A stretch of 33,686 bases of DNA, from positions 1 to 33,686 of the forward strand of contig JAILPJ010000082.1 of NCBI GenBank assembly GCA_024699605.1, written 5' to 3'. The position numbers and the translations under genes are program-made. The stretch's first letter is position 1. Every line of letters starts with the position of its first letter. This DNA comes from Desulfovibrio sp. (GTDB taxonomy: Bacteria; Desulfobacterota; Desulfovibrionia; Desulfovibrionales; Desulfovibrionaceae). A model generated the notes under the pieces. It was not told where the DNA came from. It worked only from the letters and a program-made list of their open reading frames with translations, and searched no databases. Of this stretch, positions 17,619-23,202 are shown piece by piece.

Positions 17619-17887
17619 TTATGGTACAAGGTACAATAGTGGATCCCCCTGGGAAAAGTTTTTCTCGGGATCTTCGAGGTTAAGCAAAACACGCCGTTGG
17701 CGGACTTCAAGGATATGGAAAGTTCGGAAAAATGGCCTATTTAGACCGTTCCCCTCAAGTCGCAAAATTTCTATAGCTCTTTCTTTTTTTGCTTCATCTT
17801 TATATTTTCATCGATTTTATCAACCCACAAAGAGGCCTGAATACCCTTTTCTTGTCCATCAGAATCATAACTAGTAGAGTAGTTAGT
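17619..17887 (-). pseudogene. Broken ORF downstream of the Hsp70 gene (two frames joined by a shift)
   Basis: Reading minus, one frame from 17887 gives a hydrophilic peptide (YDSDGQEKGIQASLWVDKID, stop at 17771-17773). Another frame from about 17807 continues with DEAKKERAIEILRLEGNGL and LEVRQRRVLLNLEDPEKNF to a stop at 17619-17621. Each half looks like genuine protein sequence, and they overlap where A/T runs (17781-17807) could easily have lost or gained a base. There is no start codon, and the front overlaps the last bases of the Hsp70 gene. I read it as the 3' remnant of a gene that once followed Hsp70; I do not recognise the family. It accounts for most of the 333-base gap between xdhC and the Hsp70 gene. 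Confidence 0.4.
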
Positions 17888-20411
17888 CTAGAAAAAACTT
17901 AATACCTTTTAGGTTTTTACTCGCTGCCAAGTTAAACAAAGGCTCTACCATAACTAGAAGTTCTTCGTTTGACAGTATCTCTTCATCATAACTTAGTCTT
18001 GTATATATTTCTTTCAAAAGACTTTTTGCCTTGATTGGATCAGTCCAGAATGAAGGATTAAAGTGTCTATATTGTTCAGTAATAAAATCGTATAAGCTAT
18101 CAAAAAAATTACTAAAAATATATATAAGCCTTAATTGCTTAAGTAATAACTCAGCTTGCTTAAAATCTTTACTCTTTTCAAGATCATTTAACAAGGTTTC
18201 GGCCGATTCAATCAAATCATCAAAGTTATTGTCTAGATAATCATAACTATCTTTAAGAGCAGCTATAGTCTTTTTTAGTTCTTTAAATAATGGTTCGAAA
18301 CCGTATTTTTTACTCATCTTTTCGATTGCTAAAAACAGTCTTCGTAAATCTGCAAGTAGATGCATCTTTCCGTCTTCTGAATTTTTTTCGTAACCAAATC
18401 TCGTATTAATATCATTAAATGCTTTTTCTATATTAACTAATTCGTCTTTTTCAACACTTTTGTTCTCTTGTAAAGTAGTGTACTTAGCTTTAACTAATGA
18501 TAAGAATTCTTCTAATGATTTAATATTTACAGTTTTTCTCTGTGCTACATAAATTGGCTTTCTGATACATTCGCCTGTCGTCCCAAATGTTACTTCTACA
18601 GACATCATTTGAGATCTATCAATATTAATCATTATGTCAAAGGAGGAAAATTCATCAACATGGGCTGTAATATCAGACCCAGTGACCACTACATCAAAAA
18701 CGTGATCATTATACATTGCTGTTGAACCATTTGCATCATATTCACCCTGATAAATAGGTATAACTAATTTGTCATTAGAGTTGTCAGGCCGTAAACAAGT
18801 TGGTGTTCTAAGATCTTTAATTATACCAGAAGCGGGAAGAAAAACATTTTTTTCAAGGCCTTTGAGTGAGGTAAAAATATCTTTTCCTTCAAAAAAATCA
18901 TGAACTTCAACGCCAATATAATATGGAAGTAAATCATTAATAATTTTTGTGCCCTGTAAGATAGAAAATGACTGAGGATGACAAGATATCTTAGAGCCTT
19001 TTGAGTCAAATACATTAATTTGAAAGGTATTACTTTTTCCTTCTAATAAATAGCATTCAAAAACTTCACCTTTGATATTCAGGGGTATTTTACCGCTAGA
19101 CCAGCCTTGGTCACTCCTTACTATTTCAACCATAAGCTCGTTTGGTATAGGTTCAGCCTCTTTAGAACTCAAAGGTTTAATTGTCACATATTCTATGGTT
19201 TCGACAGTGCTTGGTTCATAATTGACATCAAGAGTTAGAGTAAAGTCTTTATTTGTTAAATCTGAAAAATCTTCTTCATAATCAACCATTGATGCAAATA
19301 AGGCTGAGCCTATAGCCACCGCAGTCATAGGGTTGATACTGGTATCAATGTTTGGCGTGATTTGTGTACGCAGCATGTCTCTAAGTATTGAAGAATAGGT
19401 TGGACCACCGACCAATACTAAAGAAGTTATGTCTTTAGCTGTTATTTTATTGCGTTCAAGTAACGCCAGGCAAATATCAATTGCTTTTTGAAAAAACGGC
19501 TTAATGACAGGAGCTACTTCTTCACGTGTTACTGTTATATCAAGTTCAATTTCATTTTTTTGATCATCTAATCCAAATTCATCTAATTGAGAAGTTATTT
19601 CACATGCTTCAGCGTCTGAAAGAGTATTTTTAATAGTTTCAGCATAAAATTTTAGGCTTTCACGAAGAATTGACGCCGTATATGGTTTACTTAATAATTT
19701 TGTTAGTGTGTTCTTTTTTTCAAGATGAGGAAGTAAAATTTGGTCAATAATAGCATAGTCAATATTTTTCCCGCCTAAATAATTATCGCCTTCGGTGTCT
19801 TTAACCTGAATAATTCCCTCTTGCACATTCAAGAGTGCAACGTCAAATGTTCCACCGCCAAAATCAAAGACAAGCCAGTTACCAGTCTTATTTTTAGAAT
19901 TTATGCCGTAGGCTAAGGCCGCCGCAATAGGCTCTTGTAGTAACTCGCAATGTTTTATGCCCGCAAGTTCAGCTGCTCGTTTAGTTGCGGCAATTTGGTC
20001 TGTTTTAAATTTTGACGGGATAGTAATGACACTAGCGGTAATTTTTTCTGTGCTGACAAAACCTAATAAAGTTTTCAACACTTCAGCTGAAAGATCTTCT
20101 GATGAATATGTTTTGTTATTGTTAGCTGGTTTATATTTGGTATTTAGCCCCATTGTTCTTTTAAATTCTGAATAAACATTTTCATTGCATCTCGTCCATT
20201 TCTTGGTAGCTTTTGTTCTTTCTGAACGTAAGTCATTGTAGGCGGCATCACCTACACGTATGGTACCTTTTTTGACAAAGGAAACACACGATGGTATTGT
20301 ATCTTGTAATGTATCACTTTTAATAATATTTAGATCATTATTTTCGAATCTGCATAAAGATGAATTAGTTGTTCCTAAGTCAATGCCATATTTCATTTTT
20401 GTAGTTGCCAT
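17883..20411 (-). CDS. Divergent Hsp70 (DnaK-like) with non-standard C-terminal half
   Basis: An 842-residue Hsp70 family ATPase. The nucleotide-binding domain spans about 6-377, with phosphate-1 loop IDLGTTNSS at 10-18, a lysine (K84 in EFKRTMG) where DnaK has its catalytic lysine, the EPIAAALAYGI segment at 160-170, phosphate-2 loop FDFGGGTFD at 182-190 and adenosine motif LVLVGGPTYS at 331-340, so ATPase activity is expected. After about 385 the usual DnaK linker and substrate-binding domain are replaced by about 290 residues of beta-rich sequence and a long helical tail (about 640-842) with no EEVD-like end. ATAGGAT just precedes the ATG. It starts 8 bases after the GrpE-like gene stop, so the two are surely co-transcribed. 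Base composition is far more AT-rich than the flanking 3.4-17.5 kb region, indicating transfer. The client is unknown. Confidence 0.9.
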   Translation of the reverse strand: MATTKMKYGIDLGTTNSSLCRFENNDLNIIKSDTLQDTIPSCVSFVKKGTIRVGDAAYNDLRSERTKATKKWTRCNENVYSEFKRTMGLNTKYKPANNNKTYSSEDLSAEVLKTLLGFVSTEKITASVITIPSKFKTDQIAATKRAAELAGIKHCELLQEPIAAALAYGINSKNKTGNWLVFDFGGGTFDVALLNVQEGIIQVKDTEGDNYLGGKNIDYAIIDQILLPHLEKKNTLTKLLSKPYTASILRESLKFYAETIKNTLSDAEACEITSQLDEFGLDDQKNEIELDITVTREEVAPVIKPFFQKAIDICLALLERNKITAKDITSLVLVGGPTYSSILRDMLRTQITPNIDTSINPMTAVAIGSALFASMVDYEEDFSDLTNKDFTLTLDVNYEPSTVETIEYVTIKPLSSKEAEPIPNELMVEIVRSDQGWSSGKIPLNIKGEVFECYLLEGKSNTFQINVFDSKGSKISCHPQSFSILQGTKIINDLLPYYIGVEVHDFFEGKDIFTSLKGLEKNVFLPASGIIKDLRTPTCLRPDNSNDKLVIPIYQGEYDANGSTAMYNDHVFDVVVTGSDITAHVDEFSSFDIMINIDRSQMMSVEVTFGTTGECIRKPIYVAQRKTVNIKSLEEFLSLVKAKYTTLQENKSVEKDELVNIEKAFNDINTRFGYEKNSEDGKMHLLADLRRLFLAIEKMSKKYGFEPLFKELKKTIAALKDSYDYLDNNFDDLIESAETLLNDLEKSKDFKQAELLLKQLRLIYIFSNFFDSLYDFITEQYRHFNPSFWTDPIKAKSLLKEIYTRLSYDEEILSNEELLVMVEPLFNLAASKNLKGIKFFLD

Positions 20412-20419
20412 AAATTATC

Positions 20420-21382
20420 CTATAAATTTTGTGTTACAACAATTTGAGCAGATTGAATCATTAGTCCGTTGTAATTTATTTGTGGTTTAGTTACGCCTGT
20501 AATTATTTGTTTCCCTTTTTCTAAATCTTCATCATCAATAAAATTGGCTATAACTTTCATGCCAGAATTATATGGTTTGCCAAGCATTTCTATTACTTCA
20601 TAGCCGTTACTTTTTAGATGGTCTTTTATTTGTGAAATAGATTTAGTGAGTTGTTTGTAACCACGTATTGACTTGTCCATCCTTGATAAAGTAACTTCCA
20701 TGAATGTAATTTTATTTGCAATTATTTTTATTATTTCATGCTGTTTTGAGATATCTGGCGAAATTGATCTATGTTGTTCTGAGATTATAGTAGTAGCTAA
20801 GTCTAGATCTTCTAGAGATGCCTGAAATTTATCTATTATTTTTGTATTAAGAACAGCACTTTGGGCCAACAAATCAGACAGGGAAGATTGCTGTCGGTCG
20901 ACTATTTTTTTGAGCGAGTCAAAAAGGTGAAAGCTTAAAATAATAGAAAAAAGGATGCCGAAAACAGTAATTATATGAAAATCCTGGGAAGAGGAAACAT
21001 TTTTAGTTAGTGATAAAATGTCTTGCTGTAGGCTCGCGCGAGATTGGCTGGATTGACTCACTTCTTTAGAGGAATTTTCGGTTTTCGCTTTTACATCTGC
21101 CAGGCCAGACTTGAGTGGAGGAGTCGATTGTCTAAGCTCATTATGGATGTATTCGATGTTGTCTTGCAGATCTTCCAGTTCAGATTCTAGTTGAGAAAAA
21201 CGTTCGTTTAGTATTTCTGACTCGGTTCTGTTCTCAAAAGTAAAGGTCTCCGCTGTCAGAAAGTTATTTTCTCTTATCTCTTGATTTAGAGTATTCTTTC
21301 CCAACGCATCTCTGTTCACAGCAATGATCATACATCCACAGATGACCAGACTAGCTACTAGCTTCATAATTTTCCAGCACAT
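20420..21382 (-). CDS. Two-pass membrane protein with C-terminal GrpE-like domain
   Basis: A 320-residue protein. A hydrophobic N-terminal segment at about 7-21 (signal anchor) is followed by a coiled-coil-like region at about 53-86, a second membrane span at about 136-155 (IITVFGILFSIILSFHLF), a long helical region at about 160-258, and a C-terminal domain at 253-320. That domain follows the GrpE beta-domain pattern: L-x3-G-x3-I-E-x2-G-x-P-Y (GrpE: Gxx-I-E-x-x-G-x-x-F-D-P), then G290-x-x-I-x-x-V and a final run with A312 and IVV, like the GrpE ending RPAxVxV. With two spans, both the helical region and the GrpE-like domain would face the cytoplasm, where they could exchange nucleotide on the adjacent Hsp70. 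GrpE similarity is my reading of the pattern and not a search result. AAAGGTG precedes the ATG. Confidence 0.7.
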   Translation of the reverse strand: MCWKIMKLVASLVICGCMIIAVNRDALGKNTLNQEIRENNFLTAETFTFENRTESEILNERFSQLESELEDLQDNIEYIHNELRQSTPPLKSGLADVKAKTENSSKEVSQSSQSRASLQQDILSLTKNVSSSQDFHIITVFGILFSIILSFHLFDSLKKIVDRQQSSLSDLLAQSAVLNTKIIDKFQASLEDLDLATTIISEQHRSISPDISKQHEIIKIIANKITFMEVTLSRMDKSIRGYKQLTKSISQIKDHLKSNGYEVIEMLGKPYNSGMKVIANFIDDEDLEKGKQIITGVTKPQINYNGLMIQSAQIVVTQNL

Positions 21383-21444
21383 CTGCTTTTAACACCTTTA
21401 TTTTTTTGGTAGAAGTTACTATTTTTAAGGTTCTTTGATAAGCG

Positions 21445-22467
21445 TTATTTCGAGTCTTCTTGTTCTAATCTTTGTAATAGATCATCTACTTTATCAATTT
21501 TTTCTTCAAATTTATTTTGCATTATTGGTGATTTACAATAGTTGTATCCTGTATTAAAAAGATCAAATGCGTAAAGTAGCATTTGCTTGTCATTTTTTTC
21601 TTCTTTTATTATCTTATTGCCTAAAATATAAAGAGCATCTGCTATTTTATCGCAAATAGATATATATTCACGACTCTTATTGCTGAAATATTTATTAATT
21701 TTACGCATTTTTTGTTTAATAGATTTTAATGTATCTTCGCTTTCCGCTAAATTAAGGGTGGATAGCTCTTGTGTTTTGATATTTTCTATTAATTTTATAG
21801 TATCTTTATATGTTATATGTTTATTGTTAGAGGAAAGGCGTTCGAGTGCTTCTGTGAATATATTATTATCAGGATGTAATGAATACAATTCTCTGTAAAT
21901 TTTCGAAATAATTTCTGGCTTAATATCTAAGGATAGCATGTCTAAATATGTATATAAGAGGTCAAGCTCGTTAAATGTAAAATATACTCCGTTTATATTA
22001 CTTAGATAATCTAAAAAATTATTTTGTATTTCTTTATTTAAGAAGAGTTTGTTTATTGTTTTGATAGCTAGTTTTCGATTATTTTTTAGTAATAAGAGTG
22101 TTGAAAGGCTAATTATTGAGCCGAAATCATCATCTTTTTTATAAAAGTCACGAGCTTTTTTAAAGTTGTCTTGACTTAAATAGAGGGCTGCTTTTTCTTG
22201 ATTACTGGTAATGTTGTAGAACCAAAACAAAGAATTCTTTAGAAATATCTCTGGTGTATGCAACTCTAAAAGGGCTTTTTCAAGCCTTGTAATTGATCTG
22301 TCTGGCTTTTCAAGACCCTCTTCTTTAAGATCAAGTGGAAAATCAATTGTTTTATCGACGCGCGTGTAGGCTTTGATTTTACTAATATTTGCTAGAATTT
22401 CTCGGATTTTAGCGTTTGCCGTAGTGCCACAAATACGAAAAATATTTTGTTCAATAATATGTAACAC
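21445..22467 (-). CDS. J-domain-like N-terminus with helical repeat C-terminus; partner of the Hsp70
   Basis: A 340-residue, mostly helical protein. Its N-terminus reads NIFRICGTTANAKIREIL then SKIKAY, which resembles the start of a J domain (NYYEILGV-x-x-A-x-x-x-EIK-x-A) but lacks the HPD tripeptide. It continues with DFPLDL, SITRLEKALLEL and a SLFWFYN motif. I recall similar N-termini (FRILG, then FPLDL, then ALFWF) on hypothetical proteins encoded near Hsp70-like genes in other bacteria; this is unverified. The rest, about 85-340, is lysine-rich helices that may form TPR-like repeats (KAALYLSQDNFKKARDFYKK). The GTG start is supported by AAGGA 7 bases upstream. It is first in a three-gene minus-strand operon. 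Targeting of clients to the Hsp70 is inferred. Confidence 0.65.
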   Translation of the reverse strand: MLHIIEQNIFRICGTTANAKIREILANISKIKAYTRVDKTIDFPLDLKEEGLEKPDRSITRLEKALLELHTPEIFLKNSLFWFYNITSNQEKAALYLSQDNFKKARDFYKKDDDFGSIISLSTLLLLKNNRKLAIKTINKLFLNKEIQNNFLDYLSNINGVYFTFNELDLLYTYLDMLSLDIKPEIISKIYRELYSLHPDNNIFTEALERLSSNNKHITYKDTIKLIENIKTQELSTLNLAESEDTLKSIKQKMRKINKYFSNKSREYISICDKIADALYILGNKIIKEEKNDKQMLLYAFDLFNTGYNYCKSPIMQNKFEEKIDKVDDLLQRLEQEDSK

Positions 22468-22507
22468 AGGATTATCCTTTTATATGATCAATGCAGATGA
22501 TCTGTTA

Positions 22508-22675
22508 TCACTTCCAGGTGTCGATCGTGAAGCCGTACTCGCCTACCAGCTTCCTCAGATATCGCTCTGCGCTATCCCGGACATTTTCGATGAAAACCTT
22601 TTTCCGATAGTTCGTAGAACAAAGGATTTGAGACCGGTTGGAAGAGATGTAGCCGTAACCATACGTTAGATCACT
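22508..22675 (-). pseudogene. IS200/IS605-type transposase (TnpA) fragment
   Basis: On the minus strand, 55 codons between stops read SSNRSQILCSTNYRKKVFI, then AERYLRKLVGEYGFTIDTW and a stop. This matches the N-terminal third of IS200-type Y1 transposases (CTKYRRKVF, then helix, then GFEVxxxEVMPDHVHL). The fragment stops just before the expected catalytic HUH motif and has no start codon in frame, so it is a dead remnant lying about 40 bases upstream of the chaperone operon. The call rests on pattern memory. Confidence 0.55.
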
Positions 22676-22712
22676 TCACTTTCTTATGTCGCCGAAATTA
22701 TCCTTGAAAAGC

Positions 22713-22802
22713 GGATGTCATAGAGGATACTGGGAATCACCGTAACACAAAATCGTAGCAAAGAGAGCAGATGACATCCCTAACGATTGCAGGCGTTACG
22801 GT
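22713..22802. repeat. Interleaved inverted repeats with pseudoknot-type geometry
   Basis: Three inverted repeats are woven together: GGATGTCAT (22713-22721) with ATGACATCC (22771-22779), ACCGTAAC (22739-22746) with GTTACGGT (22795-22802), and AATCGT (22751-22756) with ACGATT (22783-22788). The second and third are nested, and the loop of the third contains the 3' arm of the first. It lies just past the transposase fragment in the 737-base gap between the divergent genes; it may be an insertion-sequence end or a structured RNA. Confidence 0.55.
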
Positions 22803-23117
22803 ACGCCAAAATTTTTCAAGCACATCAATTCGTTTCTCTTGGCAAGCCAAGTGGCACAATAAAGATCAACGCTTGCATCTATTGTATATCTCCAACTAGG
22901 TTGGAGGGCAACAATCTCTTGGAAGTTGATCTCTCCTAATTGAAGGTTACTGTCTTAGAGTATCATTTATCTTGGCTTGTCAAATAAAAATAGGTGTAAA
23001 TAGAGGGATTACATCCCTGTTTGCCTCTATTATGAAAATCTATTAACCTACCGCGCTTGACTGCTTACCTCATTACTCAAGTTACGAGAATGCGGCGGTC
23101 ATTTTGTGTAAACGGCT

Positions 23118-23202
23118 CCGTACGCTTTTGTACGGCGGCTAATCCACAAGGCCTGTGGTTTTCACAAGCCCCTTCCCTTTCCGTGAGGGGAATTGGCTTT
23201 TT
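23118..23202 (+). promoter_or_regulatory. Three hairpins in the leader of the glycosyltransferase gene
   Basis: CCGTAC/GTACGG (23118-23135) and CCACA/TGTGG (23144-23158) are followed by a two-part stem, AAGCC-TTCCC with GGGAA-GGCTT (23166-23199), running into TTTTT. The last looks like an intrinsic terminator ending 3 bases before the ATG at 23205. TGTG (23154-23157) can also pair with CACA (23163-23166), which would compete with the terminator stem. It is either the terminator of vanished upstream DNA or an attenuator for the following gene. Confidence 0.45.

Follow-up and report, generated by a model that had tools for sequence, protein, structure and literature searches.

A three-gene operon on the minus strand of a 33,686-nucleotide stretch of DNA from Desulfovibrio sp. 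(assembly GCA_024699605.1; the stretch, called the window here, is the whole of contig JAILPJ010000082.1, our C96) encodes a J-like protein lacking the His-Pro-Asp (HPD) motif (gene A), a predicted membrane-anchored protein with a GrpE-like C-terminal domain (gene B) and a divergent Hsp70 (gene C). The three products may form a dedicated, membrane-tethered Hsp70 remodelling switch, a reading to which we give a probability of about 0.52. Calling the open reading frames anew gave the same coordinates, strand and spacing (62 bases between A and B, 8 between B and C), and hence the same operon, as an earlier note that had been made from the letters alone. The genome (2.76 Mb in 114 contigs, 94.7% complete) has separate, normal DnaK, GrpE and DnaJ-type genes, so the operon is an addition to it.

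A protein search with B returned 1012 proteins at E ≤ 1e-3, the query itself counted. In the alignment of B (n = 35) the N-terminal half is variable and the C-terminal ~110 residues are strongly conserved. An AlphaFold model made from this alignment had a mean predicted local distance difference test (pLDDT) score of 83.4, with most C-terminal blocks at 90 or above, and consists of long helices followed by six strands. When the model was compared with the PDB using Foldseek, the best 12 rows were all GrpE (top E 1.3e-5), from E. coli, Geobacillus, Thermus, Mycobacterium and human GrpEL1, as were 9 of the 9 matches at E ≤ 0.001. A profile comparison with the GrpE proteins of related genomes aligned the entire beta domain (P 1.3e-4), the controls giving P 0.36 with J domains and 0.11 with a reversed profile. 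The modelled C-terminal domain of B folds as GrpE, as the earlier note had proposed for the end of this protein. In two further searches no GrpE was listed: the structural aligner VIA gave 50 rows, mostly helical bundles and BAG domains, the long helices of the model filling the list, and when the full-length B profile was searched against PDB sequences, the 60 matches listed included coiled-coil and membrane proteins and no GrpE.

The two membrane passes claimed for B were also found by hydropathy, at residues 5–23 and 135–153. The central segment is present in 59 of 60 B proteins, the sole exception being cut by a contig end, and a hydrophobic N-terminal segment, perhaps a signal peptide, is present in 48 of 59. 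Net charge is higher after the central helix than before it in 52 of 59 proteins (means +2.5 and 0.0), and on this charge rule the GrpE domain is predicted to lie in the cytoplasm, with the coiled coil on the outer side. At six loci B has only 171 residues; the membrane helix is kept and the outside part is absent.

The Hsp70 encoded by C was matched by PF00012 over residues 9–404 (E 1.5e-64; 218.8 bits against a cut-off of 20.6), and G-I-D-L-G-T-T-N-S, K84, E160 and D-x-G-G-G-T-F-D are invariant in 25 C sequences, in agreement with the intact ATPase motifs described before. The protein scored below the cut-off of TIGR02350 (prok_dnaK; 226.3 vs 822.55 bits). The C-terminal half had been thought to be replaced, and this idea was rejected: Foldseek with a model of this half gave 117 matches at E ≤ 0.001, of which the 50 listed were all Hsp70s, so that by its modelled fold C keeps a recognisable substrate-binding domain behind an insert of ~100 residues near the linker. 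By profile alone the similarity of this half to DnaK is weak (P 0.011–0.036), and a PDB sequence search with it returned no Hsp70 among the 60 matches listed; the claim of a substrate-binding domain therefore rests on the fold.

The first ~30 residues of A resemble helices I and II of J domains. Comparison of the A profile with 26 J domains gave P 4.4e-5 (controls: 0.17 with GrpE, 0.46 reversed), and a PDB sequence search with A gave 14 hits at E ≤ 10, seven of them J-domain proteins in one register (E 0.18–2.4). The six best hits were all J-domain proteins (E 0.18–0.79); the top one is 2cug (named mKIAA0962), which we take to belong there as well. The A cluster contains 77 proteins, 12 of which have no N-terminal motif and were left out of the HPD count. 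HPD was found in none of the remaining 65 readable proteins; 49 of these have [FY]-P-x-D at its position, and Asp46 is invariant across 38 aligned A N-termini. Used by itself as a query, A retrieved no protein but itself from the database. The C-terminal part of A is highly variable, with cluster members reaching 1055 residues. At least one membrane-like segment was detected by hydropathy in 65 of the 77 proteins, and no transmembrane segment in the A of the window. The absence of HPD thus stands as the earlier note had it, and the J-likeness is upheld at moderate strength: A is probably J-like, short of being called a J-domain protein. In the A proteins of L023, L025, L033, L064, L067 and L156 (L numbers denote our loci), a stretch of ~70 residues beginning C-Y-I-A-T takes the place of the usual membrane tail.

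The loss of HPD has a counterpart in the Hsp70. In the common mode of Hsp70 control the HPD of the J domain contacts one arginine of the Hsp70; Arg167 of DnaK has two partners, Asp393 in the linker and Asp481 in the substrate-binding domain, and the HPD aspartate competes with them for it (PMC7289447). At the Arg167 position the C family has Glu in 57 of 60 proteins and Ser in 3, and the DnaKs of the window's genome and of related genomes have Arg in 24 of 24. Ten C relatives from sister operons (described below) and the C of L156 also have no Arg there (n = 11; L170, whose position was unmatched by the search pattern, was outside the count). As Arg167 is lost in C and HPD in A, neither side of the classical J-domain contact survives, while the ATPase and substrate-binding domains stay. 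The strict DnaK-type linker motif was found in 3 of 60 C proteins against 24 of 24 DnaKs, and the stretch between the nucleotide-binding and substrate-binding domains measures 121–128 residues (five members measured) against 22 in DnaK. From these differences we infer that the machine probably neither uses DnaJ nor is used by it.

The contigs of other genomes were scanned with the B alignment, giving 62 loci, mostly in Bacteroidota from gut and rumen. The other carriers are two Desulfovibrionaceae, a few Clostridia and Proteobacteria; in the two Desulfovibrionaceae the contigs end inside C, which is 73% and 71% identical to that of the window over the truncated part. The loci are not fully independent: the layouts of L018 and L020 are almost the same, and a single assembly is the source of both L041 and L047. 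Gene order was read from our own open reading frame calls and BLAST clusters, with B called in 59 of the 62 loci and partners sought within three reading frames on the same strand. C was downstream of B in 59 of 59 readable loci and A upstream in 54 of 55, so the three families co-occur in other genomes, as they had to, together with a GrpE-like fold at the end of B, for the dedicated-machine idea of the earlier note to stand. In 47 loci the distance matrices of the proteins are correlated (r 0.90 for B and C, 0.72 for A and C, 0.63 for A and B), each correlation exceeding all 2000 permutations.

Of 50 loci, 42 carry a kinase-AAA+ fusion further downstream and eight lack that gene; a TerB-like protein is encoded downstream in 33 of the 50. 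Pfam found protein kinase and AAA domains in all three fusions scanned (L009, L062, L156), and a TerB match above the cut-off in L156 (E 8.8e-6) and below it in the other two (E 0.0026 and 0.0061). The catalytic loop of the kinase-AAA+ family (50 proteins) reads H-N-E, where the usual form is H-R-D, in 30 of the 39 pattern-matched members, and 46 of the 50 have a Walker A motif. No kinase-AAA+ protein was found in the window's genome, where matches were to the AAA half only; the best was a 659-residue open frame (34% identity), taken for FtsH. Remnants of kinase-AAA+ or TerB-like genes were sought in the window and none was convincing (best E 0.023). The trio is thus self-contained in this genome as far as it is assembled. 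Most related operons add genes, usually the kinase-AAA+ protein and often the TerB-like one, a point on which the reading in the earlier note was incomplete.

The slot between C and the kinase-AAA+ gene (L008, L010–L014, L018, L030–L032 and others) holds several unrelated small genes, among them a CpXC zinc protein, tiny membrane proteins and others with no Pfam match; several look like small membrane proteins by eye. Together with the variable tails of A, these slot genes suggest changing clients or targets. At L056:8513-9085 a relative of a slot gene is fused to a recognised DnaJ domain (PF00226, E 7e-12), in which HPD is likewise altered.

A private Hsp70 machine at the inner membrane, working apart from the cell's DnaK, DnaJ and GrpE, would account for this arrangement. 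B would span the membrane: its signal or anchor segment would be followed by ~110 residues of coiled coil outside, then by the membrane helix and the GrpE domain inside. It would dock C at the membrane and, by a putative exchange activity, reset it through release of ADP. The J-like domain of A would recruit C, and the variable C-terminal part of A would sense or present. The client bound by C might be the tail of A itself, some partner in the membrane or an incoming protein, and B would switch C; in most relatives the kinase-AAA+ protein, and often the TerB-like protein, would act downstream.

Several results weigh against this switch. Operon linkage with matching distances indicates co-inheritance, which can also arise from shared descent, and not contact. 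The template modelling scores between B and GrpE are low (0.31–0.46 by target length over the 12 rows, with root-mean-square deviations of 18–27), because the long helices bend differently. B also misses the Pfam GrpE family: PF01025 is absent from the 19 families matched at E ≤ 1, although the normal GrpE of this genome scores 145 bits with it, so that Pfam alone overlooks B as a GrpE. The charge rule is broken by seven of 59 B proteins (four equal, three opposite), and the J-like match of A is moderate only. The linker had at one stage been counted as lost along with HPD and Arg167. This was dropped, as a looser linker-like strand directly follows the ATPase domain in 36 of 60 C proteins, 22 of them with Asp, against a background of 123 of 899 other stretches (14%); the linker is altered, running into the inserted stretch, but kept in some form. 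Because the linker is altered only, the argument for separation from the cell's own chaperone system was weakened and the probability of the switch was lowered from 0.55 to 0.52.

The membrane anchor is also restricted in its distribution. A search seeded with C in 395 genomes of the phylum found eight carriers at E ≤ 1e-10, the window included. Among the other seven, four have a short GrpE-like protein recognised beside C (L169, L172, L173, L174; within a small set of proteins, E 4e-12 to 0.002). In five the profile recognised a J-like N-terminus (L168, L169, L171, L172, L173; E 1.5e-8 to 0.064); that of L174 was seen by eye, and L170 has no recognised GrpE-like or J-like partner. The sister operons (L155, L157–L159, L168–L174) have the same type of Hsp70 as the window, and several also encode a J-like protein together with a relative of the AAA+ or kinase-AAA+ kind. 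They differ in that their GrpE-like protein, where recognised, has 117–178 residues and no membrane segment (8 of 8; best 19-residue hydropathy 0.49–1.49), a further point against the switch reading; membrane anchoring therefore belongs to the B clade. In L155, L159 and L172 the J-like protein carries a membrane segment instead of the GrpE-like one. The wider theme is thus an Hsp70 of the C type that usually, though not always, has GrpE-like and J-like partners, and the membrane-tethered GrpE marks one clade. The operon at L155:8100-14781, from the same genus, encodes a GrpE-like protein of 146 residues, an Hsp70 of 833, an AAA+ protein of 484, a J-like protein of 497 with a C-terminal membrane segment and a further protein of 229.

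The genes surrounding relatives of the operon were examined for a possible role in defence. C matched 249 plasmid records, and the four that were opened, picked from the top 15, all have defence-type or transposon neighbours. On the Haliscomenobacter hydrossis plasmid pHALHY02 (L156:6357-20415) 13 bases separate the end of a full operon of five genes (A-B-C-kinase/AAA-TerB) from a BREX set that converges on it and includes brxL and pglZ (BrxL, E 1e-295); B is annotated there as 'septum formation initiator' and A as 'CFI-box-CTERM'. Sister Hsp70s were found on a Pseudomonas plasmid, close to a DndC-like gene (E 1.5e-40), and on an Aminobacter plasmid, close to GajA-like (2.7e-41) and GajB-like (4.5e-14) genes, and on an Aeromonas caviae plasmid (L158:110-14515) a sister operon, its Hsp70 gene annotated in two pieces, adjoins Tn7-like transposition and mercury resistance genes. 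In the plasmid regions L159:13568-18805 and L157:671-3697, GajA/GajB-like, Old/AriA-like and DndC-like genes are close to sister Hsp70 operons. L174, one of seven sister regions fetched, has a type I restriction gene nearby (3.2e-131).

No clear trend came from the chromosomal and contig loci. From 213 flanking candidates of at least 200 residues, a maximum of three per locus was retained (153), and 111 proteins from 54 loci were then chosen by hand. At E ≤ 1e-10, 127 PADLOC families, of which 25 were listed, matched at least one of these proteins and none was found in more than three, a figure that has no background rate for comparison. Among the 25 of 126 flanking Pfam families listed, TPR leads; EF-Tu-type, SIS and exchanger proteins are included, and YhcG nuclease and phage-type integrase have two members each.

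That the operon is an anti-phage or anti-plasmid system, in which the Hsp70 switch watches viral or foreign proteins and frees an effector (the tail of A, a slot protein or the AAA+ protein), is compatible with the switch and would be its purpose. The matches to defence genes around the plasmid operons and L174 led us to raise this from rather unlikely to a tentative possibility short of an even chance, and to this extent they favour the phage-defence role that the earlier note had allowed as possible. The patchy occurrence within the phylum, the variability of the A tails and slot genes, and the existence of chaperone-based conflict systems and of a bacterial NLR that senses phage through DnaJ (PMC7159879 and PMC12169576, respectively) point the same way. 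However, L174 and all but one of the four plasmid cases belong to sister systems, outside the membrane-GrpE clade. The flanking proteins, with no PADLOC family in more than three of them, point neither way. With the PADLOC-DB 2.0.0 models, A gave no match and B and C nothing better than E 0.0023 and 0.01, respectively; two neighbours of the operon in the window had no match either. Among viral contigs, 11 pattern matches included no relative.

An envelope quality-control or secretion chaperone, whose coiled coil in B would sense crowding or misfolding outside while the Hsp70 handles membrane-protein precursors inside, is likewise compatible with the switch and not exclusive of it. The hydrophobic N-terminus common in B, the membrane helix with its predicted internal GrpE domain, the membrane-like segments of the A cluster and the slot genes that resemble small membrane proteins would suit it, but patchy distribution and low GC content (see below) fit a mobile accessory function, and the six loci with the 171-residue B imply that the outside part is dispensable for core activity; we consider this role improbable. 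We are equally sceptical that A has nothing to do with J domains, its N-terminus being an unrelated helical module and the Hsp70 working with B alone. No Pfam DnaJ match was obtained for the A proteins scanned, and none of the 29 proteins found by the A alignment search (A itself included) has a precomputed Pfam domain, all of which, with the universal absence of HPD, would be expected of such a module; the profile comparison, with its far weaker controls, and the shared register of the J-domain hits in the PDB speak against it. The dedicated switch may also take a bolder form, which we regard as rather unlikely, in which B is a receptor: its external coiled coil would sense an envelope event such as phage entry, conjugation or damage, and the signal would cross the membrane as nucleotide exchange on the dedicated Hsp70.

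Table 1 Genes of the operon and their domains, with positions in the window
Feature	Positions	Strand	Evidence
Gene A, 340 aa, N-terminal domain J-like but lacking HPD, C-terminal part helical	21445..22467	-	open reading frame call, family alignments, profile, PDB sequence search
A residues 43-46, F-P-L-D, opposite the J-domain HPD in the profile alignment	22330..22341	-	profile alignment, family alignment
Gene B, 320 aa, predicted membrane-anchored GrpE-like protein	20420..21382	-	open reading frame call, protein search, model and Foldseek
B residues 5-23, hydrophobic segment at the N-terminus (anchor or signal peptide)	21314..21370	-	hydropathy
B residues 135-153, central transmembrane helix	20924..20980	-	hydropathy, family survey
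B residues 261-318, GrpE-type beta domain, best-conserved part of B	20429..20602	-	alignment, profile, model, Foldseek
Gene C, 842 aa, divergent Hsp70	17883..20411	-	open reading frame call, Pfam, alignment
C residues 9-385, nucleotide-binding domain, ATPase motifs intact; DnaK Arg167 position is Glu156	19257..20387	-	Pfam, alignment
C residues 391-486, all-beta insert between nucleotide-binding and substrate-binding domains, starting with linker-like L-T-L-D-V	18954..19241	-	
C residues 490-625, Hsp70 substrate-binding beta domain	18537..18944	-	profile, model, Foldseek
C residues 630-842, helical lid-like C-terminal region	17886..18524	-	model

The operon differs in composition from its surroundings, as had been noted before: its guanine-plus-cytosine (GC) content is 32%, against 50% in the window outside 17.6–23.1 kb, and this low value fits horizontal transfer. 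To the right of this island, the glycosyltransferase and HD-GYP genes are collinear in another genome (G376, L181); no match to the left neighbours turned up in the 13 kb fetched from it, so that no clean empty site was obtained. The transposase remnant proposed nearby was not substantiated. Positions 22500-23190, between the operon and the next gene, look non-coding and contain one 60-residue frame without a Pfam match, the rest of the stretch not having been searched. Promoter-like sites were at the level of shuffled sequence (21 vs 22.1). Taken as a whole, the interpretation in the earlier note is partly supported.

With the canonical DnaK/DnaJ/GrpE system the operon has in common the Hsp70 ATPase domain, a substrate-binding domain, a GrpE-type exchange factor and a J-like partner. 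It departs from that system in that its genes form a single operon, its exchange factor has a membrane helix, its Hsp70 carries some 100 extra residues close to a linker that seldom shows the strict motif, and Arg167 and HPD are lost. The nearest kind that was found described belongs to the GAP1-N2 conflict systems, although the core genes differ. According to Kaur et al. 2020 (PMC7159879), these are centred on GTPases, come mainly from actinobacteria and firmicutes, and in ~14% of neighbourhoods have HSP70 and GrpE genes beside a variable protein fused to DnaJ or TPR; the relatives found here are mostly from Bacteroidota and have kinase-AAA+ and TerB-like proteins. No GTPase domain was found in A, B, C or the kinase-AAA+ and TerB-like proteins scanned, and no search was aimed at GAP1-N2 itself. 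In bNACHT25 a chaperone co-factor serves phage sensing (PMC12169576), but the host's own DnaJ is used and there is no dedicated Hsp70 operon. In searches of open-licence literature, which excludes most subscription papers, no description of this operon or of a bacterial membrane-anchored GrpE was found.

The operon represents a bacterial family in which the HPD/Arg167 contact is gone, the ATPase and, by its modelled fold, the substrate-binding domain are kept, and the exchange factor is predicted to be tied to the membrane. If the dedicated switch is confirmed, it would be a natural example of an Hsp70 rewired to private control, perhaps exerted from the cell's exterior, and would make it possible to test directly to what extent the J-domain switch is indispensable. 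Should B also prove to be a receptor, a GrpE protein would transduce signals across the membrane, and its output switch would be an Hsp70 that no longer relies on the classical J-domain contact.

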